Below, one piece after another: positions 447 through 55,585 of a stretch of 64,000 nt of DNA. Every line of letters begins with the position of its first letter. Positions within the stretch are counted from its first letter, which is position 1. Under the pieces are notes generated by a model. That model saw nothing but the letters and a program-made list of their open reading frames with translations. It did not search any database and was not told the DNA's origin. The stretch lies in assembly GCF_011762045.1 (NCBI RefSeq), contig NZ_JAASQS010000002.1, positions 124,001-188,000 on the forward strand, given 5' to 3'. Both the position numbers and the translations under genes were made by a program. Origin of the DNA: Rhizomicrobium electricum (GTDB taxonomy: Bacteria; Pseudomonadota; Alphaproteobacteria; Micropepsales; Micropepsaceae).

Positions 447-3400
447 GTGAAGTTCACACGCTTAAGGATTTCCGGCTTCAAATCGTTTGTGGAGCCAACG
501 GAACTCTATATCGAGCCCGGACTGACGGCCATCGTCGGCCCCAACGGCTGCGGCAAGTCCAACCTGTTCGACGCCCTGCGCTGGGTGATGGGCGAAAACC
601 GTCCGACCTCGGTGCGCGGCTCCGAAATGGACGACGTCATCTTCGCGGGTTCCGCCGGCCGTCCGCCGCGCAACGTCGCCGAAGTGACGCTCGCCATCGA
701 CAATTCCGACCGTTCCGCCAATCCTCCGTACCAGGACTTTGAGACCATCGAGGTGTCGCGCCGCATCGAGCGCGAAGCCGGTTCGGTCTATCGCATCAAC
801 GGCCGCGACGCGCGCCAGCGCGACGTGCAGATCTTCTTCGCCGACGCCTCGTCGGGCGCCTCCTCCACCGCGTTCGTGCGCCAAGGCATGATCGGCCAGC
901 TGGTCAGCCAGAAGCCGCTCGCCCGCCGCGCCATCCTGGAAGAAGCCGCCGGCATTTCCGGCCTGCATCAGCGCCGCCACGAAGCCGAACTGCGTTTGAA
1001 GGCCGCCGAAGGCAATCTTTCGCGCCTCGACGACGTCATCAAGGAAGTCGAGGGCCAGCTTGCCAGCTTGAAGCGTCAGGCGCGTCAGGCCTCGCGCTAC
1101 CGCAATCTGTCCGGCCACATCCGCCGCGCCGAATCCCTCGCGTTTTATCTGCGCTGGAGTGCGGCGCAGTTGAAGGCGACCGCCGCGCAGGAGGCCCTCA
1201 CCGCCGCCGTCGCCATCGTCGAGGAAGCGACCCAGCTCGCCGCCGTCGCCTCGACCGCGCAGGCCGCCGCCGCCGAAACGCTGCCGCCGCTGCGCGAAGT
1301 CGAAGCCGAACGCGCCGCCGCCCTCACCCGCCTGATCCGTCAGCGCGAGGAACTCGACGCCGAGGAGGCCCGCGCCCGCGAACTCGCCCAGTCGCTGCGT
1401 CTGCGCATCGCCCAGAACGGCGCCGACCTCGAACGCGAGCACACGCTGCACACCGATGCCGAGACCGCGCTCACCGCCCTCGTCGCCGAAGCCAACGATC
1501 TCGAAGCCGCGCAGGAACGCGCCGGCGTCGAACTCGCCGAAGCCGATCAGAAAAACGGCGAGATGAACGCGGCCCTCTACGAGGCCGAACGCCTGCTCGA
1601 AAAGCTGCAGGCCGATCTCGCCGAGCGCAACGCCAAGATCGCCAGCCTCGAACGCCAGCGCCGCGTCTCGAACGAACTGGCCGAGAACGCGTCGGTCCAG
1701 CTCCAGGCGGCCGAAAACCGTCTCACCGAAGCGAAGGCCAACGCCGCCGCCGATCCGGATGTCGGTGCCGCCGAAGCGGCCGTCGCCGAAGCCCGCCAGT
1801 TGGCGGACATGGCGGCCCAGCTTGCCGAAACCGCGCGCGCCGAATTCGCCGTGCTCGACGAAGCCGAACGCGCCGCCCGCGACAGTCTCGAAAACACCGA
1901 GAAGGAAGCCCGCGCGACCTTCGACACTGCCGAACGCGAAGCCCGCGAGCGCGCCGAAGCGGCCGAACGCGAAGCCCGCGCCGCACTCGAAGCCGTCGAC
2001 CGCGACGGCCGTGCCGCCATCGAAGCGGCCGAACGCGAAGGCCGCACTGCGCTCGAAACCGCCGAACGCGAAGGTCGCGCCGCGATCGAGAATGCCGACC
2101 GCGACGGCCGCGCCGCCGTCGAAAGTGCCGACCGCGAAGGCCGCGCCGCCATCGACGCGATCGACCGCGACGGCCGCGCCGCCATCGACACTATCGAGCG
2201 CGAAGGCCGCGCCGCCATCAATGCCATCGACAGCGAAGGCCGCGCCAAGCTCGATCTGATCGAACGCGAAGGCCGCGCCCGCATCGAAGAGGCCGACACC
2301 ACCGGCCGCGCCCGCATCGATCAAGCCGACCGTGAAGGCCGCGCCCGCATCGACGAGGCCGACACCAACGGCCGCGCCGCGCTCGAAACCATCGAACGCG
2401 AGAAGCGCACCGAGCTCGAAAATGCCGAGCGCGAGCTGACCCATCTCACCACCGAAGCGAGCGCCTTGAAGCGCATCCTCGCGGCCAGCGCCGAAAACAA
2501 GTGGCCGCCGCTGCTCGATGCCGTCAACGTGCAGTCGGGGTACGAAGGCGCCCTCGCCGCCGCGCTCGGCGACGAGCTGCAGGATCCGCTCGACGAAGCC
2601 AGCCCCCGTCATTGGCGCGATCTGGCGGATTACAGCGACGCTCCGGCCCTGCCCGTCGGCGCCCGTCCGCTCAGCTATTTCGTGTCCGGCCCGCATGCCA
2701 TGTCGCGCCGTCTCGCCATGACCGGCGTGGTGTTCCCCGATCAGGGCGCCGCGTTGCAGGCGGAGTTGAAGCCCGGCCAGCGTCTGGTGTCGCCGCGCGG
2801 CGACCTGTGGCGTTGGGACGGTTTCCGCGCCTCGGCCGATGCGCCGTCGGCATCCGCCGTCCGTCTCGAGCAGAAGAACCGCCTCGCCGAACTCGACGGC
2901 CTGATCGCGGTTGCGAAAGAGATCCGCGACGCTGCCGCCGAAGCCTATACGACCGCCAAGACCGAAGCCGAAGAAGCCTATCGCGCGGCCAAGGCTGCGG
3001 CCGTCGAAGCCCATCAGACCGCCAAGGCTGCGGCGGAAGAATCGCATCGCATCAACAAGACCGAAGCCGAACAGTCCTATCAGGCTGCCAAGGCCGAAGC
3101 CGAGCAGTCCTATCAGGCTGCCAAGGCCGAAGCCGAACAGTCTTATCTGTCCGCCAAGGCCGAAGCCGAGCAGTCCTACCAGGCCGCCAAGGCGGACGCC
3201 GAAGCGCGCCATGCCTCGGCCAAGGCCGCAGCGGAAGAAGCCTACAAGATCGCCAAGTCGGCCGCGGTCGAAAACTACGAAGCGGTCAAGGCCAAGGCGG
3301 AGGACTTCTACCTCACCTCGACCACGGAGGCGGAAGACGCTTTCCAGGCGGCGAAGGTCGCTGCCGAAGCCACCTATCAGGCCGCCAAAGCGAACGCCGA

Positions 3401-4958
3401 CGAAGCCTATCAGGCCGCCAAGCAGGCCGCGTTCGAGACCTATGAAACCGCCCGCACCGCGGCCGAACAGGTTTACGAAGCCGCCAAGGATAAGGCCGAA
3501 GTGGCGCGTCAGGCTCTGCGTGTGGCTGAGCAGGACGAACGCAACGCCGCTGCCGCCGTGATGGCGGCGCAGGATGCCGCCAACAAAGCCGCCAAGCAGG
3601 CGGCCGAGCGCGCCCAGCAGCTTGCCGCTCTAGAAGCCGAGATCACGCGCATCACCGAAGCGCGCGACGCCGCTCTCGAAACCGAGCGTCAGACGGCGCA
3701 ATCGCTCGAGGAATTGGGCGACGGCCACGAGCTGATCCAGTCGGTCGACAACGCCCGCGAAGCGGCCGGCGAAGCGCGCAATGCCGCCGCCAACGCCCGC
3801 GCCGTGCTCGAAAACCTCAAGCGCGACGGCGAAGCCCGCGAACGGCGCCTTGCCGTGATCGTCGAAGAACGCAGCCGCTGGGAGCAGCGCAACAGCGCCG
3901 CAGCGGAACACATCGCCGATCTCGAAAGCCGTCAGGCGCAGTTGGCCGAAGAGTTGACCGGCGCGGAAGCCGTGCCGGCCGCCATCGCCGACAAGCGCGG
4001 CGCCCTGCTCGACGCCATCGGCGTGGCCGAAGTCGCCCGCAAGGAAGCCGGCGATGCCCGCGCCGAAGCCGAGACCACGCTGGCCGAAGCCGACCGCGCG
4101 GCGCGCGATTGCGATCGCGCTCTTTCCGCCGCGCGCGAGGAACGCGCCCGCGCCGAAGCCGTGATGGAGGGCGATTCCGCCCGCCTGACCGAACTGTTGC
4201 AGCGCATCCGCGACGAACTCGATTGCGCGCCGGAAGAACTCGCCGAACGCGCCGAGATCAAGGAAGACGAAGAACTCCCGCCGATCGAAATCGCCGAAAA
4301 GAAGGTCGAGAAGCTGAAGCAGGAGCGCGAAGCCCTTGGCGGCGTCAACCTGCGTGCCGAAGAGGAAGCGGCGGAACTCGAAACCCGCCTTACCGGCCTC
4401 ACCACCGACCGCGACGACCTGATCGGCGCCATCGAACGTCTGCGCCGCGGCATCCAGAGCCTCAACCGCGAAGGCCGCGAGCGTCTCCTCGAAGCCTTCG
4501 AGAAGGTCAACACCAACTTCCAGATGCTGTTCTCGAAGCTGTTCGAAGGCGGCGAAGCCAAGCTGACCTTCACGGAATCGGAAGACCCGCTGGAAGCCGG
4601 CCTCGAAATCTTCGCCCGTCCGCCGGGCAAGCGTCTGCAGTCCCTCGGCCTGTTGTCGGGCGGCGAGCAGGCGTTGACGGCGATGAGCCTGATCTTCGCG
4701 GTGTTCCTGGTGAACCCGGCGCCGGTCTGCGTGCTCGACGAAGTGGACGCCCCGCTCGACGATGCCAACGTCGAACGCTTCTGCAACATGCTCGAAGAGA
4801 TGTGCAAGCTGACCGACACGCGCTTCCTGGTCATCACCCACCACGCGCTGACCATGTCGAAGATGCACCGTCTGTTCGGCGTCACGATGGCCGAACGCGG
4901 CGTGTCGCAGCTGGTCTCGGTGTCCCTGGCCGAAGCCGAACGGGTGGCCGCCGAGTAA
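447..4958 (+). CDS. smc: Chromosome segregation ATPase SMC with expanded coiled-coil arms
   Basis: SMC is the ATPase of bacterial condensin; with ScpA and ScpB (both at 29-31 kb) it compacts and segregates the chromosome. Visible parts: Walker A GPNGCGKS at residues 31-38, ABC signature LSGGEQ near 1403-1408, Walker B VLDE near 1429-1432, and a hinge at about 672-815. The start is GTG with AAGG eight bases upstream. At 1503 residues it is about 350 longer than typical bacterial SMC (about 1150-1190). The excess is in both arms: residues 474-671 before the hinge and 828-1025 after it are each about 18 eleven-residue repeats. The reading frame is intact and all ATPase motifs are present, so the protein should be functional. 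Confidence 0.97.
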   Translation: MKFTRLRISGFKSFVEPTELYIEPGLTAIVGPNGCGKSNLFDALRWVMGENRPTSVRGSEMDDVIFAGSAGRPPRNVAEVTLAIDNSDRSANPPYQDFETIEVSRRIEREAGSVYRINGRDARQRDVQIFFADASSGASSTAFVRQGMIGQLVSQKPLARRAILEEAAGISGLHQRRHEAELRLKAAEGNLSRLDDVIKEVEGQLASLKRQARQASRYRNLSGHIRRAESLAFYLRWSAAQLKATAAQEALTAAVAIVEEATQLAAVASTAQAAAAETLPPLREVEAERAAALTRLIRQREELDAEEARARELAQSLRLRIAQNGADLEREHTLHTDAETALTALVAEANDLEAAQERAGVELAEADQKNGEMNAALYEAERLLEKLQADLAERNAKIASLERQRRVSNELAENASVQLQAAENRLTEAKANAAADPDVGAAEAAVAEARQLADMAAQLAETARAEFAVLDEAERAARDSLENTEKEARATFDTAEREARERAEAAEREARAALEAVDRDGRAAIEAAEREGRTALETAEREGRAAIENADRDGRAAVESADREGRAAIDAIDRDGRAAIDTIEREGRAAINAIDSEGRAKLDLIEREGRARIEEADTTGRARIDQADREGRARIDEADTNGRAALETIEREKRTELENAERELTHLTTEASALKRILAASAENKWPPLLDAVNVQSGYEGALAAALGDELQDPLDEASPRHWRDLADYSDAPALPVGARPLSYFVSGPHAMSRRLAMTGVVFPDQGAALQAELKPGQRLVSPRGDLWRWDGFRASADAPSASAVRLEQKNRLAELDGLIAVAKEIRDAAAEAYTTAKTEAEEAYRAAKAAAVEAHQTAKAAAEESHRINKTEAEQSYQAAKAEAEQSYQAAKAEAEQSYLSAKAEAEQSYQAAKADAEARHASAKAAAEEAYKIAKSAAVENYEAVKAKAEDFYLTSTTEAEDAFQAAKVAAEATYQAAKANADEAYQAAKQAAFETYETARTAAEQVYEAAKDKAEVARQALRVAEQDERNAAAAVMAAQDAANKAAKQAAERAQQLAALEAEITRITEARDAALETERQTAQSLEELGDGHELIQSVDNAREAAGEARNAAANARAVLENLKRDGEARERRLAVIVEERSRWEQRNSAAAEHIADLESRQAQLAEELTGAEAVPAAIADKRGALLDAIGVAEVARKEAGDARAEAETTLAEADRAARDCDRALSAAREERARAEAVMEGDSARLTELLQRIRDELDCAPEELAERAEIKEDEELPPIEIAEKKVEKLKQEREALGGVNLRAEEEAAELETRLTGLTTDRDDLIGAIERLRRGIQSLNREGRERLLEAFEKVNTNFQMLFSKLFEGGEAKLTFTESEDPLEAGLEIFARPPGKRLQSLGLLSGGEQALTAMSLIFAVFLVNPAPVCVLDEVDAPLDDANVERFCNMLEEMCKLTDTRFLVITHHALTMSKMHRLFGVTMAERGVSQLVSVSLAEAERVAAE
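1866..2459 (+). repeat. Hendecad repeat array in the N-terminal SMC arm (33-bp imperfect repeats)
   Basis: Eighteen consecutive 11-residue units (SMC residues 474-671) with the pattern E/D-R-E/D-G-R-A-A-I/L-E/D-x-A. Most central units keep the glycine and the following arginine. At DNA level these are 33-bp imperfect tandem repeats. The array stops exactly at the start of the hinge. Eleven residues make three helical turns, so the array should form a nearly straight helix, unlike the heptad coil usual in SMC arms. Confidence 0.9.
2928..3521 (+). repeat. Hendecad repeat array in the C-terminal SMC arm (33-bp imperfect repeats)
   Basis: Eighteen consecutive 11-residue units (SMC residues 828-1025) with the pattern A-E-A-E-x-x-Y-x-A-A-K. 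An aromatic residue or histidine usually occupies the seventh position. The register and length match the array on the other arm, but the composition differs (Ala/Glu/Lys/Tyr rather than Arg/Glu/Gly). Four central units at 3060-3191 are almost identical at DNA level, suggesting recent tandem duplication. Confidence 0.9.
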
Positions 4959-17018: not shown

Positions 17019-17094
17019 TCTGCCCCCGCGGGCGCAAGATTCTCGTCACCGGTACAAAGACCGTGGGGGAAGTGCCCGCCAGGGCGAAGGGGGC
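17019..17094 (+). repeat. CTGCCCCCGCG/GAAGGGGGC palindromic repeat, copy a
   Basis: Starts CTGCCCCCGCGGGCGC and ends GCGAAGGGGGC, with a GCCC-GCCA-GGGC hairpin before the end. The first 50 bp match the complement of 55515-55585. Other copies lie at 54005-54320 and 54975-55058. It lies next to the OLD nuclease gene. Confidence 0.65.
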
Positions 17095-44483: not shown

Positions 44484-46682
44484 TCAGTAGCAGACCCGCC
44501 CCACTTCATAGAACACCTGTGTCGGATATCCGCTCGGATCATTCATGATGATACCGGAGATCATGCCCTGGTGCCCTGCGGCGCAACTGAACGCCGCGCC
44601 GTCTCTCAATTTCATCCACGGCGAGTTCGGCGAGAATATCGCGCGCTCGTTGGCGACTCTGAACGTGTAGACGTGATGCAACGCGTCCGGCGGGACGATC
44701 CGCCGTACTTCCACATTCGCCGTAGGAGCGAAGTCGATGATGTCGGCATGCGTTCCGGGCGGAATAATCAGGCTTCCGCCGCTCGGCTTGTTGCTGACGT
44801 CGTTCTGCGTCAGCGGATGCGACGAAACGGCCGGCGCAAAGGCTCCGTTGCCGTAGACGGTGATATTCCCGGATTGCGAGGGACCGGCGTAGGTCTTGGA
44901 TCCCCAAATTCCATTGATGGTCGAACTGTCGTCGACCGTCTTGTTTGGTTTGGTGCCGCCGAGCGTCCAATCCGCCGGTGTAAAAGAGTTCGGCGAAGCG
45001 TGAATGCACGGGTTCACGCCGCGAATGCGAAGACCACGCAGCGAATAGCCCGAAGCTTCGGCGTAATAGAGCATATCGTTGTCCCGCACCGTAACGCAGC
45101 CTACCTGCTCCATGCCGGGGGCACCGACATCCACGTACGTGGTGTCGGCATGCAGCGCGCCGCGAACATTGGAAAACGTGTTTCGCTCTATGACGGCATT
45201 ACGGGATGCGGCGCACGTATTGTCGATGTAGACCACGGCGTCGATCGAAAATTTACCGTCGTGGATATGGGTGCTGTTTCCGCAGTTGACGATCCCGGTC
45301 GTATCGACATTCTCGAAATAAGGCCGGACGTCGAGATTGTTGACTTTGGCCCGGACGCTGAGCCCGACATTGGCGTTGGCGAATTCGACGCCGTCGATCT
45401 TCCAGCCATCGGGAGCGCCCGTTCCGTCGCCGATCGCCGCACCGGTATAGAATCCTCGAATGGACCCGTGTTCCAGTTGCAGAAGCCCGATATTGTTTGT
45501 CGAGCCCACGACAAGGCCGGTTCCGGACCTGATCGATCCGACGGCGGAGCCGCCTTTGCCGCCGATATTGAAGTCGCGGAGTGTTGCACCTCCGGCATTG
45601 CCCAGCAGCACGCCGTCGCCGGTGCCGTTTTGTACGACGTACACCTCCGACATCGTTCTCCAGCCGCTGAATTCGTTGCTTTGAACGATCGGCTTCCCCC
45701 AACGGACGGTGAACGCACCCCCTCCCGGAGCCGTAAGCTGGAGTAGTGCGGGCTTTGGACCGGGATAGGTCACGCCGCCGGGATACCGCGAGATATTGGC
45801 CGTATTGCCTGCCGCGTTCACAACGTAATAGACGGTCGTCGCAAGCAGCGGGGCCGGCATCTTGCCGTCCGCCGAAAACGTGACAGGCGTTCCGTTCGCG
45901 GGCGCCCCACCGGGAAAGGTGAGCTCGGCCGGAGACGTTTTTGAGAAGGTCACGCCGGACCAAATTTGCGGGGTCGTGTTTCCCTCGAACGAGATCCCCC
46001 TGATGTCCCAGCCGCCGCTCGGCGAAGTCCCGTACATGACGCCGTCGACGAGCACCGTGCCGCCGGCGCTATTTACAATTCGGCAGGCCTGCCTCGCCCC
46101 GGCCCAGATCGCGGGGTTTGGGAAACCATCGCTGTAGAACGTGTACGATGTGCCCTGAAGGGCGGACTTGCCGTAATCCGCACTCGGTATGTAGAGCGGC
46201 TTGTCGATGACATACGGGGTCTGCGAAGGCGGACAGAACGTGTTGAGCCCATTCCGGATGGCGGCGGATATGGCGTTCTGAAATGCGCGGGCGGTTTCGG
46301 ATGGCGAACTCGACGGCGTCCACCCAAAATGCAAGGGGGAAAGCGCGCGGTTCTGTGGAACGCCGACCATGCAACCGGGCGAACACTGCGTCTGCCCGCG
46401 CGGCGGAATCAGGAAGCCGCCGTCCGCGACCAGCGGATTCCAGCCGTTTGCCTTGATCTTATCGGCCGTCATGTAAAGGAATGTGCGGCCGTCGGGTGGG
46501 CCTTCGGGTGCATCGCGATCGAGGACCACTGGCCCCGCCGACTGCATCTGAACCGCGGTAAGCCCTGTCAGAGCCATCGTCGTGGAGAGGTGCCGCGACG
46601 AAGTCTCGTTATCGGCGCCGTTCGCAGCCACTGTAGCGGCCGCCATTATCACCCACACGGAGCACTGCTTGAGGTTTCTCAT
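44484..46682 (-). CDS. Large secreted protein, probable right-handed beta-helix
   Basis: 732 residues from the ATG with a signal peptide (MRNLKQCSVWVIMAAATVAANGA); a GTG nine codons earlier is possible. After an N-terminal domain the protein shows many short strand-turn units with Asn/Gly ladders (GLLQLEHGSIRGFYTGAAIGD, WKIDGVEFANANVGLSVRA), typical of pectate-lyase-like beta-helices and of phage tailspikes. It ends in a compact C-terminal domain with SCAAGHQGM and GRVCY. It has no operon partner. Composition is somewhat less GC-rich than the neighbours. Catalytic residues cannot be assigned. Confidence 0.75.
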   Translation of the reverse strand: MRNLKQCSVWVIMAAATVAANGADNETSSRHLSTTMALTGLTAVQMQSAGPVVLDRDAPEGPPDGRTFLYMTADKIKANGWNPLVADGGFLIPPRGQTQCSPGCMVGVPQNRALSPLHFGWTPSSSPSETARAFQNAISAAIRNGLNTFCPPSQTPYVIDKPLYIPSADYGKSALQGTSYTFYSDGFPNPAIWAGARQACRIVNSAGGTVLVDGVMYGTSPSGGWDIRGISFEGNTTPQIWSGVTFSKTSPAELTFPGGAPANGTPVTFSADGKMPAPLLATTVYYVVNAAGNTANISRYPGGVTYPGPKPALLQLTAPGGGAFTVRWGKPIVQSNEFSGWRTMSEVYVVQNGTGDGVLLGNAGGATLRDFNIGGKGGSAVGSIRSGTGLVVGSTNNIGLLQLEHGSIRGFYTGAAIGDGTGAPDGWKIDGVEFANANVGLSVRAKVNNLDVRPYFENVDTTGIVNCGNSTHIHDGKFSIDAVVYIDNTCAASRNAVIERNTFSNVRGALHADTTYVDVGAPGMEQVGCVTVRDNDMLYYAEASGYSLRGLRIRGVNPCIHASPNSFTPADWTLGGTKPNKTVDDSSTINGIWGSKTYAGPSQSGNITVYGNGAFAPAVSSHPLTQNDVSNKPSGGSLIIPPGTHADIIDFAPTANVEVRRIVPPDALHHVYTFRVANERAIFSPNSPWMKLRDGAAFSCAAGHQGMISGIIMNDPSGYPTQVFYEVGRVCY

Positions 46683-46954
46683 CCATGACCTGCTTCGGGA
46701 AGCGCGCACGACTTGGCCCGCGATACGTGGAAAGCATTTCGCCCCACTCCCGACGCGGCGGCTAGTCTCCGGCTCATTAGTTTCAGTTAATTTTGGGAAC
46801 GCGGCAGCCGCGTAAGCTATTGCTTCGTGCGCAGCAATTTACACCCGTAGCCGGAGATGTGATCGGGGCCGCCTCGATTTCGGTGGTAATATCTCTCCAT
46901 CGATCGGCGAGAAATCTATAGCAATGAAACGCTATAGGAACCGACCGAAAGAAG

Positions 46955-46996
46955 TTGGAGGCCGCACTCTGGGAATGTGCGGCCTCCAATTTTTTT
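46955..46996 (+). terminator. Strong rho-independent terminator without an obvious gene
   Basis: TTGGAGGCCGCAC pairs perfectly with GTGCGGCCTCCAA (13 bp) around TCTGGGAAT, followed by seven T. The 270 bp before it on this strand contain no supported gene, so it may end a small RNA starting in the gap behind the beta-helix gene. Confidence 0.75.
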
Positions 46997-46999
46997 GCG

Positions 47000-47043
47000 C
47001 TTGTGTTTGCACGCAGACCACCTTGTGTTTGCACGTAGACCAC
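47000..47043. repeat. Two tandem 22-bp repeats
   Basis: CTTGTGTTTGCACGCAGACCAC is followed at once by the same sequence with one change (C to T). The pair lies between the terminator at 46996 and the inverted element at 47168. Too few copies to call a larger array. Confidence 0.8.
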
Positions 47044-47167
47044 ATTGTCAGTCCCGGAGCCGCAACTCGTTCTGACTATCTCGCACCGCTCGCGCACATG
47101 GACGGCAGCTAACGCAAAATCCGTGCTTAGCAGTGCATGTCGTTATCGCTGCAACATGCGGCCCCGA

Positions 47168-47500
47168 TGCGATTGCGAGTACTTGCAAACAAAGCAGCGT
47201 TTGTCGCAGCCCCTTGAAAGTTCCCCTTCCGTTCCCCACATGTCATTCGTGTTTTTTGACAACAGGAGTGGCTGGCAAACCAACGGCGGAAGGAAGTCGC
47301 GCGGACCTCTATATCCGCCAAGAGCGCGAAAGACATAGCGAGGGTTCGGTGTCTCAACTCGGGCGCACCATATGCCCTTCGAGGAAAGCAGACTGTGACC
47401 GGTCGTGTGCCGCTTGACTGCGGTACACGTCGGCGCCCTAGCTTTTGCCTCCATCCCTACCGCGTGCGGGCCCTTCAAGACGTTGAAGGGCCCGTTTTTT
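47168..47500 (+). ncRNA. Candidate structured RNA, copy A (inverted twin at 53517-53846)
   Basis: About 330 bp, roughly 96% identical to the reverse complement of 53517-53846. It ends with a rho-independent terminator. Inside are ACAAA/TTTGT, GGCGGA/TCCGCC and a 10-bp hairpin at 47404-47429. Differences between copies include a G-C to A-T double change that preserves the hairpin. About 90 bp in the centre is unchanged. No conserved reading frame survives the differences. From 46683 to 47621 there is otherwise no gene. Confidence 0.55.
47467..47500 (+). terminator. Terminator of element A
   Basis: CGGGCCCTTCAA pairs with TTGAAGGGCCCG (12 bp) around GACG and is followed by six T. The twin terminator in copy B is at 53517-53548 on the minus strand. 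Confidence 0.9.
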
Positions 47501-47503
47501 ATT

Positions 47504-47597
47504 ACCTCCCCCTTGTGGGGAGGTCGGAAAATCGCGAGCAGGAAAAGCGCCGAAGGAAAATCCGACGAACTCTGCGAGCGATTTTCTGGGTGGGGGC
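47504..47597. repeat. ACCTCCCCC-family palindromic repeat
   Basis: ACCTCCCCCTTGTGGGGAGG hairpin at the left and GGGTGGGGG at the right, as at 7929-7982, with a longer interior containing AAAATCGC...GCGATTTT arms. Confidence 0.6.
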
Positions 47598-47621
47598 GGT
47601 ACTCCCGAAAGATGAAGTCTT

Positions 47622-48485
47622 TCACCCGTGCCTTGTCAGTGCACCATACATCTCCGGCCGGCGGTCGCGGTAAAGGCCCCAGGACGCGCGCGCGGTGGCC
47701 AGTTCGTCGAGATCGAAGGATGCCGTGATAACGCCCTCCGCTGTGCGATCCATTTCCGCCGCCAAGGCGCCGTGCGCATCCGTGATGAACGACGAGCCGT
47801 AGAACGTCAGTTCGCCTGCCTCGCCTTTCTCGGCGCCGACACGGTTCGAGGCGATAACCGGCACGCCGTTGGCGGCGGCATGGCCTTGCATCACGCGGCG
47901 CCAGGCATCGCAGCTGTCGAACGGCGGCGCCGGCGGCGGCTCGGACCCGATGGCAGTCGGAAAGAAGATCGCTTCGGCGCCCATCAGCGCCATGCTGCGC
48001 GCGCACTCGGGAAACCACTGGTCCCAGCAGATCCCGGCGCCGAATGTTCCGTAGGCCGTCTTGAAGACGCGGAAGCCCGTGTCGCCCGGCGTGAAGTAAT
48101 ACTTCTCCTGGTAGCCGGGCCCGGCCGGAATATGCGTCTTGCGATAGAGGCCGAGCACGCGCCCGTCGGCATCGATCATGGCAAGGGAATTGAAATAGGC
48201 GTGACCGGCGCGCTCGAAGAAGCTCACCGGCAAGACCACCTTCAGCTCTTTCGCCAGGGTACTCATTTCCGCGAGCAACGGATTGCCTTCCATCGGCGCC
48301 GCCAGCTTGAAATGGTCCGGCGACTGGTCCTGGCAGAAATACGGAGTCTGGAACAGTTCCTGGAGCAGCACGACCTGCGCGCCCAGTTCGATGGCCTCCA
48401 CAACCAGATACTTTGCTTTTTCGATATTGGCCCGGATGTCCCAAGAACAAGCGAACTGCGTGGCGGCGAAATGGACGGTTCTCAT
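47622..48485 (-). CDS. aguB: N-carbamoylputrescine amidase
   Basis: 287 residues of the nitrilase superfamily. Catalytic Glu in LLQELFQTPYF, Lys in YRKTHIPAG, Cys in GAGICWDQWFPE. It hydrolyses N-carbamoylputrescine to putrescine, CO2 and ammonia. The start MRTVHFAATQ overlaps the aguA stop by 4 bp, so the two polyamine genes are translationally coupled. An upstream extension of the frame has no family support. Confidence 0.94.
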   Translation of the reverse strand: MRTVHFAATQFACSWDIRANIEKAKYLVVEAIELGAQVVLLQELFQTPYFCQDQSPDHFKLAAPMEGNPLLAEMSTLAKELKVVLPVSFFERAGHAYFNSLAMIDADGRVLGLYRKTHIPAGPGYQEKYYFTPGDTGFRVFKTAYGTFGAGICWDQWFPECARSMALMGAEAIFFPTAIGSEPPPAPPFDSCDAWRRVMQGHAAANGVPVIASNRVGAEKGEAGELTFYGSSFITDAHGALAAEMDRTAEGVITASFDLDELATARASWGLYRDRRPEMYGALTRHG

Positions 48486-49528
48486 GCCGCCGGTTCTCCC
48501 AGAGAAATGCAATGGATTCCACCGCCACCTTGCAGCAAATCGAGCACTTCTACCTGCAAAACGTCGCGGCCTGGGAAACAAGCTGCTAACACGGCCTCGG
48601 CTTTGTCGTCGTTGGGATCGTCGAACGACGGCATGACGATGCCGCCGTTGGCCAGATAAAAGTTGACATAACTTGTTTGCAGAATGCGTCCGCGCCAGTC
48701 AAAACGCACACGGCGCGGCTGCGGCAGCTCTACAACTTCTATGGCGCGTCCCCGCGCATCGCGCTCGTGCTGCAACCGGCGGATCGCCTCTTTCACCGGC
48801 GGCGCATCGGGCAGCGAGGACGACGAGGGGACACCGACGATGACGCGTCCCGGCGCGGCGAAACAGGCGATATTGTCGACATGGCCGTCGGTTTCGTCAT
48901 CGGAGAACCCGCTGCCGAGCCAGATCACCTTCTCGATACCGGCATAGCGCTTGAGGAGGAACTCGACCTCCTCCTTGCCGAGATGCGGATTGCGGTTGGG
49001 ATTGAGCAGGCACTGTTCGGTGGTAATCAGCGTGCCTTCGCCGTCGGTATGGATCGCTCCGCCCTCGCAGATGAGCGGCGCTTCCTGGACCTCGATCTCG
49101 GCATACTCCGCGATCCGCGTCGCCAGATCGGCATCGTCGGCATAAGGCCGGTATTTCTCGCCCCAAGCATTGAACTGCCACTGCACGGCGCCCCGCCGGC
49201 CATGGGAACCGACGAGGAATGTCGGTCCGGTGTCGCGCGCCCACGAGTCGTCGAGCGGCGTCTCGAACAGATGCACCTTGCCGGCGGTGGCGAGCTTGGC
49301 GGCGGGAACATCCTCGTGCCTCGCGGCCATGACCACGGGCTCGAAGGTGGATATCGCTCGGGCAATGCGCGCCGCCACCTGTTTGGCGTTGAGCATGGCC
49401 TCGTCGGAACCCCAGGTTTCCGAGCGGCAAGGCCAGCACATCCACGTACGCACATGCTCCGCCCAATCGGGGGTCATCGCCAAACCCTCGGATGGGCCCG
49501 GTATCTCGGCGTCGCGCGTCCGGCTCAT
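48482..49528 (-). CDS. aguA: Agmatine deiminase
   Basis: 348 residues, guanidino-modifying fold. It converts agmatine to N-carbamoylputrescine. Motifs: DDSWARDTGPTF, ICEGGAIHTDGEGT, DDETDGHVDN, and the catalytic Cys in GGGGIHCISL near the end. Start MSRTRDAE is used; a second ATG 17 codons later (MTPDWAEH) is also possible. First gene of the aguA-aguB operon. No arginine decarboxylase is in the window. Confidence 0.95.
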   Translation of the reverse strand: MSRTRDAEIPGPSEGLAMTPDWAEHVRTWMCWPCRSETWGSDEAMLNAKQVAARIARAISTFEPVVMAARHEDVPAAKLATAGKVHLFETPLDDSWARDTGPTFLVGSHGRRGAVQWQFNAWGEKYRPYADDADLATRIAEYAEIEVQEAPLICEGGAIHTDGEGTLITTEQCLLNPNRNPHLGKEEVEFLLKRYAGIEKVIWLGSGFSDDETDGHVDNIACFAAPGRVIVGVPSSSSLPDAPPVKEAIRRLQHERDARGRAIEVVELPQPRRVRFDWRGRILQTSYVNFYLANGGIVMPSFDDPNDDKAEAVLAACFPGRDVLQVEVLDLLQGGGGIHCISLGEPAA

Positions 49529-49622
49529 GATTCCTCTATAGCGCGCCGAAACCCTTTGAAGAAAGGACTTGAAACACGTTAAGTTCCACCTTTCGGGATC
49601 CGCCCCCCGCACGAGGATTGGT

Positions 49623-50090
49623 ATGACAGGCCGCATCGAGACACGATTGAAGGATTTGGGGATCAGCCTGCCCGCGCCGCCGGCGCCGGTGGCGAGTTAT
49701 GTGCCCACCGTGAAAACGGGAAACCTGGTGTTCGTTTCGGGGCAGATCCCCGCCGCCGCTGACGGGCTCAAATACGTCGGCATCGTCGGCCAGGACCTCT
49801 CGGTCGAAGACGGCAAGGCCGCCGCACGGCTGTGCGCCATCAACCTCCTCGCCCAGGCCAAGGCGGCCTGTGACGGCGACCTCGACCGGGTGACACGCTG
49901 CGTAAAATTGTCGGTATTCGTCAATGCCGTGCCCGGCTTCACCCAGCACCCGGAGATCGCCAATGGCGCCTCCGACCTGATGGTCGAAGTGTTCGGCGAT
50001 GCCGGCAAGCACGCCCGTGCCGCCGTCGGGTCAGGCTCGCTGCCCAGGAACGTCTCGGTCGAGGTGGAAGCCGTGTTCGAGATCGCGTGA
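49623..50090 (+). CDS. RidA-family enamine/imine deaminase-like protein
   Basis: 155 residues. Pattern of the RidA/YjgF superfamily: VKTGNLVFVSGQIP, AAARLCAINLLAQAKAA, LSVFVNAVPGFTQHPEIANGASDLMVEVFG and GSLPRNVSVEVEAVFEI. The key arginine (LPRN) is kept, as in the longer RidA-like group of proteins. It likely removes reactive imines. Stop overlaps the next GTG by 4 bp. Confidence 0.9.
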   Translation: MTGRIETRLKDLGISLPAPPAPVASYVPTVKTGNLVFVSGQIPAAADGLKYVGIVGQDLSVEDGKAAARLCAINLLAQAKAACDGDLDRVTRCVKLSVFVNAVPGFTQHPEIANGASDLMVEVFGDAGKHARAAVGSGSLPRNVSVEVEAVFEIA

Positions 50091-51250
50091 CGGAGGACGG
50101 GGTCACCGCGCGTCTATCCGGTCGTGCCGCCGATATCGGCGCGACGGCGTGGAATGCTTGCGCCAATCCATCCGGCCGCCCCGATCCCCATCCCTTCACC
50201 CGCTACGAATTCTTCGTCGCCTTGGAAGAGTCCAAGTCCGCCGTGCCGCGCACCGGCTGGCGGCCGGTCCATCTCGCCGTCGAACGGCATGGCCGCATCG
50301 AGGGTTTGATGCCGCTGTACGTCAAGCGGCACTCCCAAGGCGAATACGTCTTCGATCACGCCTGGGCCGATGCGCTGGAACGCATCGGCGGGCGCTATTA
50401 CCCCAAGCTGCAATCCGCGGTGCCGTTCACGCCCGTGACCGGCCGTCGAATGCTGATCGCCAACGGTGCCGATGAAACGGCAACACGTAACGCGCTGCTA
50501 AGTGCCGGGGCAGCGGCGGTAGAGCATCTCGATTGCTCGTCGCTGCACATCACCTTCCCGATCGAGGAGGAATGGCGTGCGGCGGAGGCGATGGGCTATC
50601 TGCTCCGTACCGATCGCCAGTTCCATTGGCTGAACCAAGGCTACGACAGCTTCGATACGTTCCTGGCGGAGCTGTCTTCCTCTAAGCGCAAGAACCTGCG
50701 CAAGGAGCGCGCGGCGATCCAGGCCGAAGGCATCGCGTTTGATTGGCTCACCGGCTCCGACATCACCGAGGCGCATTGGGATGCGTTCTTCGAGTTCTAT
50801 ATGGACACGGGCGGGCGCAAATGGGGACATCCCTATCTGACGCGTGAATTCTTCAGCCGCATCGGTCAAGACATGGCAGACCAGGTCTTGCTGATCCTGG
50901 CGCGGCGGGGCAAAAAGTACATCGCCGGCGCGCTGAATCTGTTCGGCGAAGGCGTGCTTTACGGACGCAACTGGGGCTGCACCGAGTACGTGCCCTTCCT
51001 GCACTTCGAGGCTTGCTATTACCAGGCCATCGACTTCGCCATCGCCAAGGGCCTTGCCAAAGTCGAAGCCGGCGCGCAGGGCGAACACAAGCTGCTCCGG
51101 GGCTACAACCCTGTGCCCACCTACTCCGCGCACTTCATCGCCCATCCGGGCCTGCGCACGGCCGTGGCGAACTACCTTAAGGCCGAGCGTGACGCGATTG
51201 CCGAGGACATCGAAGACTTATCCGCCGCATCGCCGTTCAAGAAGGGATAA
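50087..51250 (+). CDS. FemAB-like (DUF482) GNAT-fold protein
   Basis: 387 residues. PF04339-type peptidogalycan protein: ERHGRIEGLMPLYVKRHSQGEYVFDHAWADALE, SSKRKNLRKERAAIQAEG, FFEFYMDTGGRKWGHPYLTREFF, and the end KLLRGYNPVPTYSAHF. It is proposed to transfer amino acids or acyl groups in the FemAB manner, but no substrate is known. GTG start overlapping the RidA gene. Followed by the HIT gene. Confidence 0.88.
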   Translation: MTEDGVTARLSGRAADIGATAWNACANPSGRPDPHPFTRYEFFVALEESKSAVPRTGWRPVHLAVERHGRIEGLMPLYVKRHSQGEYVFDHAWADALERIGGRYYPKLQSAVPFTPVTGRRMLIANGADETATRNALLSAGAAAVEHLDCSSLHITFPIEEEWRAAEAMGYLLRTDRQFHWLNQGYDSFDTFLAELSSSKRKNLRKERAAIQAEGIAFDWLTGSDITEAHWDAFFEFYMDTGGRKWGHPYLTREFFSRIGQDMADQVLLILARRGKKYIAGALNLFGEGVLYGRNWGCTEYVPFLHFEACYYQAIDFAIAKGLAKVEAGAQGEHKLLRGYNPVPTYSAHFIAHPGLRTAVANYLKAERDAIAEDIEDLSAASPFKKG

Positions 51251-51313
51251 AACCCATTCACCTAGCCCCTAGCGGTTGCTAAAAAGGGAGTCGAAATCCG
51301 TCCGCGAGGAACC

Positions 51314-51730
51314 ATGCCCTACGATCGCTCCAATATCTTCGCGAAGATCCTGCGCGGCGAGATTCCGTGCGTGAAGATCTATGAAGACGACAAGACCTTC
51401 GCCTTCATGGACGTCATGCCCCAGGCCGAGGGCCACACGCTGGTGGTGCCGAAGGAAGAGGCCGAGAACATCTTCGAGCTGTCGCCCGAAGGTGCCGCCG
51501 CACTGATCCAAACGGCGCAGAAGATCGCTGCCGCCGTCAAGAAGGCCACCGGGGCGCCGGGCATCATGCTGGTCCAGCTCAACGGGCGGCCAGCCGGCCA
51601 GAGCGTTTTCCACATCCACATGCACATCATTCCGCGCCACGCCGGCATCGATCTCGAATTCCACGAGCGCAACATGGTCCCGGCGGCGGAGCTGGAGCCG
51701 CTCGCCGAGAAGATCCGGGCGGCGCTTTAG
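51314..51730 (+). CDS. HIT-family purine nucleotide hydrolase (HinT-like)
   Basis: 138 residues. HIT triad GQSVFHIHMHIIPR close to the C-terminus, and IFAKILRGEIPCVKIYEDDKTFAFMDVMPQAEGHTLVVPK at the N-terminus. These proteins hydrolyse AMP-lysyl or AMP-amide bonds. It lacks the Cx2C zinc motif of some relatives. Single-domain. Confidence 0.95.
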   Translation: MPYDRSNIFAKILRGEIPCVKIYEDDKTFAFMDVMPQAEGHTLVVPKEEAENIFELSPEGAAALIQTAQKIAAAVKKATGAPGIMLVQLNGRPAGQSVFHIHMHIIPRHAGIDLEFHERNMVPAAELEPLAEKIRAAL

Positions 51731-51846
51731 GCGGTTCGCTAGTTTGCAGAGGCTGCCGCAAGGGATGCCTCCCATGCAGACAGTACATATCCAGACACCC
51801 CGTATGCCCGCATCTATGGTCGGGATAGTTTGCATATGGGGTTGCC

Positions 51847-53508
51847 ATGAAATGGTTATTGACGTTCGCCTCGGTCTGCGCCGTGACCGCGGCCGCATGG
51901 GCTGATCCGGTCACGCAGCGCCTCGACGCCGCAACGGACACCGCAAAGGCTCTGGCGGCGAAAGAGGATTATCGCGGGGCGGCCGAAGCCATCGGCAAGC
52001 TGGAGAGCGACCATCTCGTCACCGGTGTGACCGGCTGGCCGGACGCTCAGCTCGAGCATGCGCGTTATCTGGCGAAGTTGGGCGATGCGGATAAGGCGAT
52101 GGCCACGCTGACCCAGGCCGTCGCGCTTGGGGCCATGGTCAAAGCCAATGACCTCGCCAAGGATGCCGCCTTCACCGCACTGCGCGATCGACCGGCCTTC
52201 AAGGCGCTGCAGACCAAGCTGGAACAGAGAAACCGCCTCTGGCAGGACAGCCCGGCCATCGCCACACCGTACAAGCCGGTGCTGAGCGATGAGGAGAAGG
52301 CAGCGGGGGTGTCCAAGATCTGGGCCGAAGCGCGCTTCAACTTCCCGTTCTTCGACCGCATCCCCGACCTCGATTGGGACGTCGCCTATGTCGCGGCACT
52401 GGCCGACGCGCGCGCCGCCAAAACCACCGAAGACTATTACCGTGCGCTGACGCGCTTCATGGGGCAGCTCAAGGACGGGCACTCGCGCGTGCTGCCGCCC
52501 ACCGAACTGCAGGACCGCATGAACGGCGTCACGGCCGTCGACACCCGCCTGATCGAAGGCAAGATCATCGTCACCGGCGTTTCCGATCCCGCCCTGACGG
52601 CGAAGGGAGTCCGCGTCGGTTCGGAGATCGTACGCATCGATGGCGAGCCGGCGCTCGAGTACGCCAAAACGAAGGTCGCTCCGAATATCTCCGGATACAC
52701 CCAACAGGATCGCGATGTCTGGCAATACGGCTTCCAGCTTCTGCGCGGACCGGTCGATAAACCGGCCCAGGTGGTGCTCAAGGATGCGCAAGGCAAGACG
52801 GTCACTGTCGACCTGCCGCGCAAGCACAATGACGGCCCGTTCGGCTTCCTGCCCAAGATCGAGCGCACGGCCTCGTTCAAGATCCTGCCGGGCGACGTCG
52901 CCTATCTCGAAGTCAATTGGTTCATGGACGATGCGGGCATCAAGACGCTGAAGGAAAACTTCGCAGCCGCCTCCGCCGCCAAGGGTCTCATCATCGACAT
53001 CCGCCAGAACGGCGGCGGCAATAGCGATTACGCCGATGCCCTCGCCCGCGCCTTGGCCGACAAGCCCTATCTCGGATCGCGCTGGCGCGGCGTCGACTAC
53101 AGGGCGACGTACCGCTCCTGGAACCGGCCGATCGGCTGGGTGCGCGGGACGGCGCCGACCTTCACGCCCGATCCGAACCTGCACTATGCCAAGCCTGTCG
53201 TCGTGCTGGTGAGCGGACGAACCTACTCCGCGGCTGAGGATTTCCTGGTGGCGTATGTCTCTTCCGGACGCGGCAAGCTGGTCGGCGAAACCAGTGGCGG
53301 TTCGACCGGCAATCCTTTGCTGTTCAAGCTGCCCGGCGGCGGCATGGCGTTCATCTGCGCCAAGGATGACTCGTTCGGCGACGGCCGCATCTTCGAAGGC
53401 GTCGGCATTGCGCCGGACGTGACGGTGAAACCGACCATCGCGGATATCCGGCAGGGTCGCGATCCGGTGCTGGAAAAAGCGGTCGCGATCATCAAAGCGT
53501 CCCGCTAA
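51847..53508 (+). CDS. Secreted S41-family (C-terminal processing) peptidase
   Basis: 553 residues. Signal peptide MKWLLTFASVCAVTAAAWA, an N-terminal helical repeat-like region (about 25-120), a PDZ-like segment (SEIVRIDGEPALEYA), and the tail-specific protease core: LIIDIRQNGGGN, GRTYSAAEDFLVAY (catalytic Ser), GKLVGETSGGSTGNP. The catalytic Lys cannot be placed with certainty. Works in the periplasm. Ends 8 bp before inverted element B. Confidence 0.85.
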   Translation: MKWLLTFASVCAVTAAAWADPVTQRLDAATDTAKALAAKEDYRGAAEAIGKLESDHLVTGVTGWPDAQLEHARYLAKLGDADKAMATLTQAVALGAMVKANDLAKDAAFTALRDRPAFKALQTKLEQRNRLWQDSPAIATPYKPVLSDEEKAAGVSKIWAEARFNFPFFDRIPDLDWDVAYVAALADARAAKTTEDYYRALTRFMGQLKDGHSRVLPPTELQDRMNGVTAVDTRLIEGKIIVTGVSDPALTAKGVRVGSEIVRIDGEPALEYAKTKVAPNISGYTQQDRDVWQYGFQLLRGPVDKPAQVVLKDAQGKTVTVDLPRKHNDGPFGFLPKIERTASFKILPGDVAYLEVNWFMDDAGIKTLKENFAAASAAKGLIIDIRQNGGGNSDYADALARALADKPYLGSRWRGVDYRATYRSWNRPIGWVRGTAPTFTPDPNLHYAKPVVVLVSGRTYSAAEDFLVAYVSSGRGKLVGETSGGSTGNPLLFKLPGGGMAFICAKDDSFGDGRIFEGVGIAPDVTVKPTIADIRQGRDPVLEKAVAIIKASR

Positions 53509-53516
53509 CCCATAAT

Positions 53517-53846
53517 AAAACGGGCCCTTCAACGTCTTGAAGGGCCCGCACGCGGTAGGGATGGAGGCAAAAGCTAGGGCGCCGACATGGACCGCACTCA
53601 AGCGGCACATGACCGGTCACAGTCTGCTTTCCTCGAAGGGCATATGGTGCGCCCGAGTTGAGACACCGAACCCTCGCTATGTCTTTCGCGCTCTTGGCGG
53701 ATACAGAGGTCCGCGCGACTTCCTTCCGCCGTTGGTTTGCCAGCCACTCCCGTTGTCAAAAAACACGAATGACATGTGGGGAACGGAAGGAGAACTTTCA
53801 AGGGGTGCGACAAACGCTGCTTTGTTTGCAAGTACTCGCAATCGCA
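53517..53846 (-). ncRNA. Candidate structured RNA, copy B (inverted twin of 47168-47500)
   Basis: Reads in the minus direction and ends with the same 12-bp terminator stem. Compared with copy A there are about a dozen base differences and one single-base indel. The conserved hairpin has CA...TG where copy A has CG...CG. The terminator faces the S41 peptidase gene, so it also ends that gene's messages if it works both ways. Upstream similarity extends patchily to 53863 (ACGGATTTTGCG). Confidence 0.55.
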
Positions 53847-54004
53847 ACATGAACGGATTTTGCGGGCGCGAGCGATGTGCAACGCGAAGCCAGCGTCTGC
53901 CTGAGTTATCTTCCGTCCATGTGCGCGGGTGTTCGGAACCAGTCGCGGGAGAGGTATTAAGGTTAGTCGTGGGCGATAATCCGTAGACGGATTATTCTAC
54001 GAGA

Positions 54005-54320
54005 TGAGCCCTCCTTCCCGGCTTTGCCGGACTTCCCTCCGCGGTCTGAATGCCGATGGCATGAGCGTCGCGCCCGCGGGGGGCAGAAAAGGTGGTGCGA
54101 GCCGAAACGGCGCGCCCGCGGAGAGCAGAAAAGGGGAGCACACATTGCTAAGCTCTGCCCCCGCGCTCGGCGTTGACACCACCCCAAGGGAACCCCTTCC
54201 GCCTTACGGCGGGTTTCCCAACGGTCCATGTGCTGGTCGAAAAAGTTTTGCGCCCGCGGGGGCAGAGAAATGTGGCGTTCTCTGCTAAGTTCTGCGAACT
54301 GGGGACGCGCCGAAGGGGGC
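54005..54320. repeat. Cluster of CTGCCCCCGCG/GAAGGGG palindromic repeats
   Basis: Two minus-strand copies (54005-54088 and 54182-54268), a fragment at 54100-54135 and a plus-strand end CGAAGGGGGC at 54311-54320. The minus copies carry hairpins CCGGC-AAA-GCCGG and CCGCC-GTAA-GGCGG where the plus copies have other stems. Together with element B this fills 53509-54324, in which I see no gene. Confidence 0.65.
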
Positions 54321-55063: not shown

Positions 55064-55528
55064 GTGGCGTATTGCCAACCGAAATCGCTGGGCCATGCGC
55101 GCGCAATGCGCAAGCAATTGACTCATGCCGAAATCATCTTGTGGTCACGATTACGCCGTGGCGAACAAGGCGGGTTCCGCTTCCGCAAGCAACATCCCAT
55201 CGGACCGTACATCGCGGATTTCGCCTGCAGCGCGGCCAAGCTTATTGTCGAAGTCGATGGCGAGACGCATGGATCCGATGAAGAGATCCGGCACGATCAG
55301 CGACGCGACGCGTATATGCGAACGCTTGGCTGGCGCGTATTCCGGGTGACCAACGAGGATGTCTACAAGCGGCTCGACGTTGTGCTCGACGGAATTGCGC
55401 GGATTCTGCAGGGCACGATGGAGCCGCCTCCGGTTCGGCGCGAGCGCTCACAGCGGAGGGAGAACGAGCCCCCTACCCCTGCTTACGCGCGGGTCTACGC
55501 TGTCGCTACCCGCTCCCCCACGGTCTGA
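55064..55528 (+). CDS. DUF559 (Vsr-like PD-(D/E)XK) endonuclease-domain protein
   Basis: 154 residues. LTHAEIILWSRLRRGEQGGFRFRKQHPIGPYIADFACSAAKLIVEVDGETH is the DUF559 signature, with likely metal residues Asp in ADFAC and Glu/Asp in VEVDG; YMRTLGWRVFRVTNEDVYKRLDVVLDGI follows. Related to very-short-patch repair nucleases, target unknown. Starts on GTG directly behind a palindromic repeat and ends in another. A longer in-frame start would lie within the repeat. Confidence 0.85.
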   Translation: MAYCQPKSLGHARAMRKQLTHAEIILWSRLRRGEQGGFRFRKQHPIGPYIADFACSAAKLIVEVDGETHGSDEEIRHDQRRDAYMRTLGWRVFRVTNEDVYKRLDVVLDGIARILQGTMEPPPVRRERSQRRENEPPTPAYARVYAVATRSPTV

Positions 55529-55585
55529 GTGCAGGTGACGAGAATTTTGCGCCCGCGGGGGCAGATAAGCACCCGCGGGGCAGAG
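55515..55585 (-). repeat. CTGCCCCCGCG palindromic repeat, copy e (partial)
   Basis: On the minus strand it reads CTGCCCCCGCGGGCGCAAAATTCTCGTCACC and AGACCGTGGGGG, nearly the same as 17019-17070. It overlaps the end of the DUF559 gene. Confidence 0.65.

Follow-up and report, generated by a model that had tools for sequence, protein, structure and literature searches.

The stretch analysed here, called the window, is a 64,000-nucleotide segment of Rhizomicrobium electricum (NCBI RefSeq assembly GCF_011762045.1, contig NZ_JAASQS010000002.1, positions 124,001 to 188,000 of the forward strand). Within it, two inverted copies of one element, termed A and B, enclose a block of six genes, aguB, aguA, RidA, GNAT, HIT and S41, among which aguB and S41 were confirmed by Pfam. 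An earlier note on this DNA had taken the pair either for a structured non-coding RNA present in two copies or for a non-autonomous element, and had suggested that the six-gene segment might invert by recombination. On the basis of the comparisons described here, we consider it rather probable that A and B encode members of a so far undescribed, multicopy family of structured RNAs in one alphaproteobacterial genus.

The arms of the inverted repeat (47210-47498 and 53517-53805) are 289 nt long and 98% complementary, and they extend outwards for 62 nt (47151-47212 and 53802-53863) at 87%. In a DNA search with copy A as the query, copy B was retrieved with 97% identity over 335 positions (E 9.6e-160), a likeness far beyond chance, so that the earlier description of an inverted pair of ~330 bp with ~96% identity was borne out. 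The same holds for the unchanged centre of about 90 bp, as an alignment of A and B contains about 90 nt without change between two substitutions, and for the terminator stems followed by T runs, which comprise 13 pairs instead of 12. These stems with their T-rich tails (47466-47495, +; 53549-53520, -) are both aimed into the gene block and are the longest among the terminator-like sites listed in the region, the number of which (6) is not above that in shuffles (6.5). The 3' parts of A and B fold better than dinucleotide shuffles, with z values of -6.6 and -4.8, respectively. The features of the locus are given below; R1 denotes a covariance model of the 3' module made from 32 sequences and R2 a wider model made from 51 sequences.

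47168..47208, + strand: 41-bp conserved upstream module of copy A (TGCGATTGC ... TTTGTCGCA), from the 5' module alignment; present in many, not all, relatives
47214..47242, + strand: putative promoter of copy A, TTGAAA - 17 bp - CACATG, from alignments
47220..47234, + strand: LexA-box-like GTTC-N7-GTTC in the promoter spacer of copy A; in this genus the motif also precedes lexA and recA
47248..47501, + strand: RNA gene of copy A, predicted transcript ~250 nt with estimated start, from promoter and terminator positions and family models
47285..47319, + strand: 5' hairpin of copy A, GGCGGA ... TCCGCC, from a single fold and covariation among 33 copies
47380..47503, + strand: 3' module of copy A, a rod-like hairpin with loop TTGACT (47414-47419) and then the terminator (R1 90.4 bits, R2 86.1 bits, covariation)
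47466..47495, + strand: terminator stem-loop of copy A, then a T run, from the terminator scan
53773..53801, - strand: putative promoter of copy B, TTGAAA - 17 bp - CACATG, from alignments
53781..53795, - strand: LexA-box-like GTTCTCCTTCCGTTC of copy B, from the motif search
53513..53767, - strand: RNA gene of copy B, predicted transcript extent with estimated start, from alignment, terminator scan and family model
53512..53635, - strand: 3' module of copy B (R1 87.3 bits, R2 80.0 bits)
53520..53549, - strand: terminator stem-loop of copy B, from the terminator scan
47622..48485, - strand: aguB (CN_hydrolase), converging on A, stop codon 118 bp from the RNA end
51847..53508, + strand: S41 peptidase gene, converging on B, stop codon 3 bp from the RNA end

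Structure and spread of the probable RNA family

The 5' hairpin was written by hand from single folds after the sequences had been seen. In a structure-blind MAFFT alignment of 33 copies it contained 58 cells that were changed on both sides and still paired, compared with 22.5 (standard deviation 3.5) in shuffles and 3-17 in a control with the structure slid along the alignment, and all seven inner pairs showed such double changes. The 3' module gave 47 double-change cells versus 11.9 in shuffles. In wider, model-fitted alignments the totals rose to 90 versus 23.5 and 101 versus 26.1, with variation on both sides in five of the six pairs of the inner hairpin. These shuffle counts must not be read as probabilities because related sequences are not independent. 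G-U combinations exceeded A-C combinations (76 versus 10, and 37 versus 17), and the terminator-ended strand is therefore favoured as the transcribed one. In the designations used below, G000 is the window's own genome and the other G numbers are relatives within a set of 69 genomes of the genus. Alignment A1 comprised 32 3' modules and omitted G000_C4_253, G007_C4_13, the degenerate G007_C6b, G000_C5_205, G033_C31, the G061 copies and the second of two subtypes described below; A3 held 33 of 34 sequences, G000_C2_426 with a body equal to that of C2_419 being dropped; A2 and A4 include one probable false match (L187, opposite strand).

Several results weigh against a structured RNA. The number of 5' hairpin pairs with a double change (8) was not unusual, as 68 of 500 shuffles reached it, and the same applied to the 3' module, where the observed count was reached by 79 of 500. 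RNAalifold found no structure in the 5' alignment, and 38 of the 47 double-change cells of the 3' module fall within the terminator stem. Within the limits set by these pair counts, compensatory base changes lie above the controls, as a structured RNA gene demands, and the comparison of copies argues that we are very probably dealing with a family of structured non-coding RNA genes. The locus might instead encode a small protein or represent a chance repeat, and a frame of ~53 codons lacking an ATG start is indeed present in both A and B. Among the 34 copies examined, no start or length of a reading frame is kept, in line with what the earlier note had stated for the pair; a small protein gene or type I toxin frame was rejected on this ground, and covariation together with homology across species speaks against a protein gene and a chance repeat alike. 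Both readings are thus very improbable.

When the window's own genome was searched at the DNA level, a third long copy (84%) and partial copies were found, and DNA searches of the genus revealed clear relatives in G033, G007 and G019. R1 matched 11 of the 69 genus genomes at E<=0.1, weak hits included, and recovered G061, a genome outside its training set, at E 3e-9. With R2, 14 of the 69 genomes were matched at E<=0.01 and ten below 1e-5; the matches numbered 21 in G000, 20 in G033, 17 in G007 (one of which overlaps another on the opposite strand), seven in G019 and three in G061, and copies outside the R2 training were recovered in G021, G026 and G082. The genome-wide search for further copies that the earlier note had called for thus showed that the family is not limited to two: the RNA part of its proposal stands, given covariation, G-U excess, promoter and terminator anatomy and sites common to other species, and the number of copies does not, with 21 matches to the 3' module in the same genome. 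Two subtypes can be distinguished. Type I includes A and B and accounts for ten copies in G000; the remaining 11 matches mostly form a uniform second subtype with a degraded LexA-type box.

The copies of G021, G026 and G082, together with those of G064, G030 and G002, carry CCTTGA, ATACAGG and a GCAAAGGTGC-like string in fixed order, an arrangement that was not found in the reversed sequence. This composite motif was drawn from the same sequences and seven of its eight places are not independent; the eighth, at the accC site of G021, was seen first by eye and then matched by model R3, untrained on this hit, at E 4.3e-7. Outside the genus, matches at E<=0.01 were obtained in three of 385 class genomes with R1 and in two with R3, which is about chance level, and the adjoining DNA examined at the two R3 hits contained no ATACAGG-type motif. 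The covariance-model search against Rfam, also suggested earlier, was run: Rfam 15 gave no match for the whole window, and at relaxed thresholds copy A and its relatives gave weak hits only, far below the cut-offs, so that no Rfam family was assigned. At L261:78-136 of G064, the Brucella sRNA family BASRCI408 was matched in fragmentary form with 27.4 bits, again far below cut-off. ARAGORN found no transfer-messenger RNA (tmRNA) in ten copy-bearing loci, and this candidate was discarded. No match was found in phages or plasmids by blastn; one viral contig and hits in Pseudomonas, Tardiphaga, Achromobacter, Acidobacteria and Anaerolineaceae scored 10-11 bits with R2 for a 14-nt hairpin alone and were taken as chance. 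No description of the RNA family was recognised in the literature searched, which included few subscription papers.

Positions of the copies at gene ends

All ten type I copies of G000 end tail-to-tail against a convergent gene with a Pfam domain. The neighbours encode CN_hydrolase (aguB), S41, gamma-glutamyltranspeptidase, biotin carboxylase (AccC), C13 peptidase, flavin reductase, His_Phos, GNAT, GH3 and citrate synthase, and their stop codons lie -7 to +118 bp from the RNA end, a position set by hand a few bases beyond the terminator stem. The gap between A and aguB is larger because it contains a separate short intergenic repeat (CCTCCCCCTTGTGGGGAGG ..., 47499-47600), which has matches elsewhere in the same genome and in several relatives. 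Among 12 further type I or G061 copies, eight face a convergent open reading frame (ORF) with a Pfam domain, including FtsZ in G007. Against a general tail-to-tail placement it has to be held that the convergent ORF has no Pfam domain in the other four, and that for G007_C16_275 and G019_C368 the neighbouring ORF may run in the same direction. Of 40 type I and G061 copies inspected, three showed no ORF converging on them, including one located where its contig ends.

Such placement could indicate a local device acting mainly in cis, in which RNA gene and terminator would affect the gene converging on them by providing a common terminator and, on induction, by transcriptional interference or antisense read-through. 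The regular position of the ten type I copies close to stop codons fits this explanation, as does the presence of accC, citrate synthase and, in G007, ftsZ among the neighbours. The neighbours have, however, no obvious common function, the RNA as drawn stops before the coding region of the neighbour in nine of ten cases, and a mere terminator would need neither a covarying 5' hairpin 200 nt upstream nor a sequence homogenised among loci. We regard a mainly local role as decidedly improbable.

Both ends of the block between A and B (block 1) and of a second block in G000 (block 2) are outward-facing gene 3' ends, and the inverted arrangement of the copies follows from tail-to-tail placement at such blocks. 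In G061 a third convergent pair surrounds other genes; it was considered as an instance of block 2 and rejected, as aroQ of G061 is located elsewhere. On random placement, two adjacent pairs within 8 kb arose in 0.8% of cases for ten copies and in 15% for all 21 copies. Both blocks are ancestral, and genomes in which no copy was detected carry them in the same orientation. Block 1 consists there of aguA-RidA-GNAT-HIT between ROK/HAD genes and clpA, with aguB in all genomes except G010, and block 2 of gamma-glutamyltranspeptidase-M48-DsbA-M24-aroQ-accB-accC before MFS/aat, in the orientation of G000.

A flip of the six-gene segment by recombination between the copies, as envisaged earlier, would be favoured by the length and near identity of the inverted repeats and by similar pairs at other blocks. 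The comparison of genomes did not support it: relative to its neighbours, block 1 has the same orientation in G000, in G007 (one flank) and in ten genomes without a detected copy at the block (both flanks in eight, one flank in two), block 2 is uniform in all 12 loci as far as the flanks extend, and tail-to-tail placement at two outward-facing 3' ends already explains the arrangement. The block-1 contig of G033 ends inside the repeats, has no flanks and does not allow the orientation to be judged. No inverted block was seen in comparable assemblies, which cannot show inversion within a population, and an invertible segment appears hardly credible.

Among 13 block-1 loci the S41 peptidase gene (51847-53508) is found only in G000 and G033. 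In the window it separates HIT from copy B, whereas in G007 HIT is directly followed by the RNA gene. The site 3' of accC is occupied in G000, G033, G007 and also in G021, by the R3 match mentioned above, which lies outside all models. Gene-map profiles had missed this G021 copy, and 'no copy detected' is therefore not proof of absence. At the site next to the gamma-glutamyltranspeptidase (GGT) and NTPase genes, G019 has no copy.

Other features of the window were recorded along the way. At 46957-47048 a strong hairpin with a T run (about GGAGGCCGCAC ... GTGCGGCCTCC, then T's) was noticed by eye, although missed by the terminator scan, and is followed by a 22-bp tandem repeat; it may mark where another transcript ends upstream of A. 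The ORF of 741 codons at 44484-46709 has no counterpart in 12 other block-1 loci compared. Two arrays of 33-bp repeats (1815-2408 and 2924-3517) are in register and are probably 11-residue coding repeats, and a dispersed palindromic intergenic repeat with GCCCGCGGGGGCAGA occurs at 17019-17092, 54193-54269 and 55514-55568.

Putative promoters, the LexA-type box and likeness between copies

Upstream of the RNA, the alignments contain a putative promoter, TTGAAA and CACATG separated by 17 bp (47214-47242 in copy A). In G000, G007, G019 and G033 the spacer is an exact GTTC-N7-GTTC in 26 of 31 copies, a count that leaves aside the three boxless G061 copies and fragments at contig ends. The eight half-site bases of this box hardly vary, in contrast to the seven between them, and nine of the ten type I copies of G000 possess it. 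The identical motif, with differing inner bases, precedes lexA in five of five and recA in four of four genus genomes (recA was not found in G019). GTTCN7GTTC is the published Caulobacter LexA motif. G000 contains 142 such sites compared with 107 in a reversed control, and ten sit at RNA copies; nine G000 regions with other sites contained no RNA copy as judged by two nhmmer profiles. An intact GTTCN7GTTC is also present upstream of the second-subtype copy C3:444780 of G000.

Other results argue against these putative promoters or against their control by LexA. A simple sigma-70 scan reported no promoter in the region. The box is absent from all three G061 copies, even though it stands before lexA and recA of this genome, and an exact box occurs in two of eight promoter-bearing copies of the set from which the composite motif was drawn (one each in G064 and G030), the one of G030 lying 8 bp further downstream from the -35 element than in A. 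Most second-subtype copies have no intact box. As the box is absent or degraded in many relatives, LexA control cannot be family-wide; for the clade of the window's genome we judge it likely from the motif and its position. Two observations concern the surroundings of the promoters: a 20-bp palindrome, ATAATCCGTCTACGGATTAT, lies ~150-170 bp upstream in three copies (B, L075 and L091), and the copy beside citrate synthase (L170 and L171, i.e. G000 C5:205725 and G033 C31:30685) is situated ~5.6 kb from lexA in both genomes.

The RNA bodies of copies within one genome are partly homogenised. In the block 2 pair of G000 they are identical over 264 nt and the preceding 70 bp align at 75%. The linked pairs of G033 and G061 have 94.9% and 90.7% identity in the body and 82.5% and 77.9% upstream, respectively, and A and B of block 1 have 97.9% and 97.1%. 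In G007, one copy is 90.8-95.5% alike to four unlinked copies, with promoters at 79.7-98.6%; this set includes the copy next to citrate synthase, whose G000 counterpart is only 74.2% alike. Promoters were better matched by position in some comparisons (84.8%, 85.7% and 85.1%) and not in another (76.9%), and alignments of 70 bp of unrelated DNA also reach ~70%. Gene conversion is the simplest reading of the likeness within genomes, with copying by mobility as an alternative. The pattern of homogenisation is mixed, as seen in the homogenised promoters of G007, in the unlinked G033 copies C68_19 and C63, which are closer to each other (96.4%) than the linked G033 pair (94.9%), and at the C13-peptidase site, where the orthologues of G000 and G033 (96.2%) are closer than the G000 paralogues (89.8%).

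These data also bear on the earlier suggestion of a non-autonomous mobile element, that is, a unit of promoter, RNA and terminator that some unseen enzyme would insert at the 3' ends of genes, with the RNA structure aiding mobility or being cargo. Numerous dispersed copies in few genomes, with none detected in most of the genus, the preference for gene 3' ends, the likeness of copies within G007 including their promoters and the empty GGT/NTPase site of G019 all agree with movement, and the copies after HIT in G007 and after the extra S41 gene in G000 look as if the site had been newly chosen. Compensatory changes in both end regions, retention of the regulatory box while the centre drifts and occupation of the same sites in several species, accC of G021 included, speak against it, as do the missing phage or plasmid matches. 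No terminal repeats or target duplications were noticed, the GGT/NTPase site of G019 being the one filled/empty site compared, by eye. Patchy, numerous and partly homogenised copies keep the mobile element in consideration, and we hold it to be rather unlikely.

Proposed working and comparison with known systems

For the preferred reading as a family of RNA genes, we propose that each copy is transcribed from its own promoter into an RNA of ~250 nt, which may reach ~400 nt in those relatives whose middle part is longer. The terminator of the copy itself would end the RNA, as a rule tens of bases or less from the stop codon of the oncoming gene. In the clade of the window's genome, LexA would most likely repress these promoters via the box in the -35/-10 spacer, and the A/B family is probably induced there as part of the SOS response. 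DNA damage and the ensuing cleavage of LexA would free about ten promoters together and a structured RNA of ~250-400 nt would accumulate. Through its conserved loop and single-stranded segments, this RNA may act in trans as a regulator of other RNAs or of a protein, a role for which we see the chances evenly balanced. The partial homogenisation of copies within a genome would go back most simply to gene conversion. One could go further and imagine an RNA that DNA damage induces and that, besides being a regulator, spreads its own sequence: LexA cleavage would fire ten or more loci, and SOS recombination would copy the RNA bodies between loci into the 3' ends of genes, such that the family stays alike and individual promoters can diverge. 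We consider this extension quite unlikely. With ten exact GTTCN7GTTC sites at RNA copies in one genome, non-coding RNA would, if LexA control is true, make up a large part of the damage regulon, and the family provides a natural case for examining how similarity is maintained among dispersed RNA genes of bacteria.

Among known systems, DinR of Klebsiella pneumoniae resembles the A/B family as a non-coding RNA linked to LexA and DNA damage; this small RNA (sRNA) is processed from dinI mRNA and pairs with ftsZ mRNA (PMC10907235). DinR is set apart as a single mRNA-processed RNA, whereas in the A/B family a genome contains about ten separate genes with a box, each of which has a promoter and a terminator to itself. 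The G007 copy adjoining ftsZ is not evidence of regulation. SymR/SymE and AgrAB/DinQ likewise are RNA genes tied to the SOS response; their partner is a toxin gene of the same locus, in contrast to the A/B family, which keeps no toxin frame. IstR/TisB is a further SOS-linked antisense/type I toxin system, in which IstR is LexA-linked. Multicopy sRNA families such as Qrr and LhrC consist of several near-identical structured RNAs at separate loci, each with a promoter and a terminator. The A/B family differs from these in being dispersed at gene 3' ends with up to ~10-20 copies per genome, partly homogenised and in many cases equipped with a LexA-type box; homology was checked via Rfam only. Repetitive extragenic palindromic (REP) sequences and miniature inverted-repeat transposable elements (MITEs) are dispersed intergenic repeats with hairpins, some of them at gene 3' ends as in the A/B family. 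Compared with both, the A/B family stands out by its length of 250-400 nt, its own promoter, its covarying helices and its sites common to several species.

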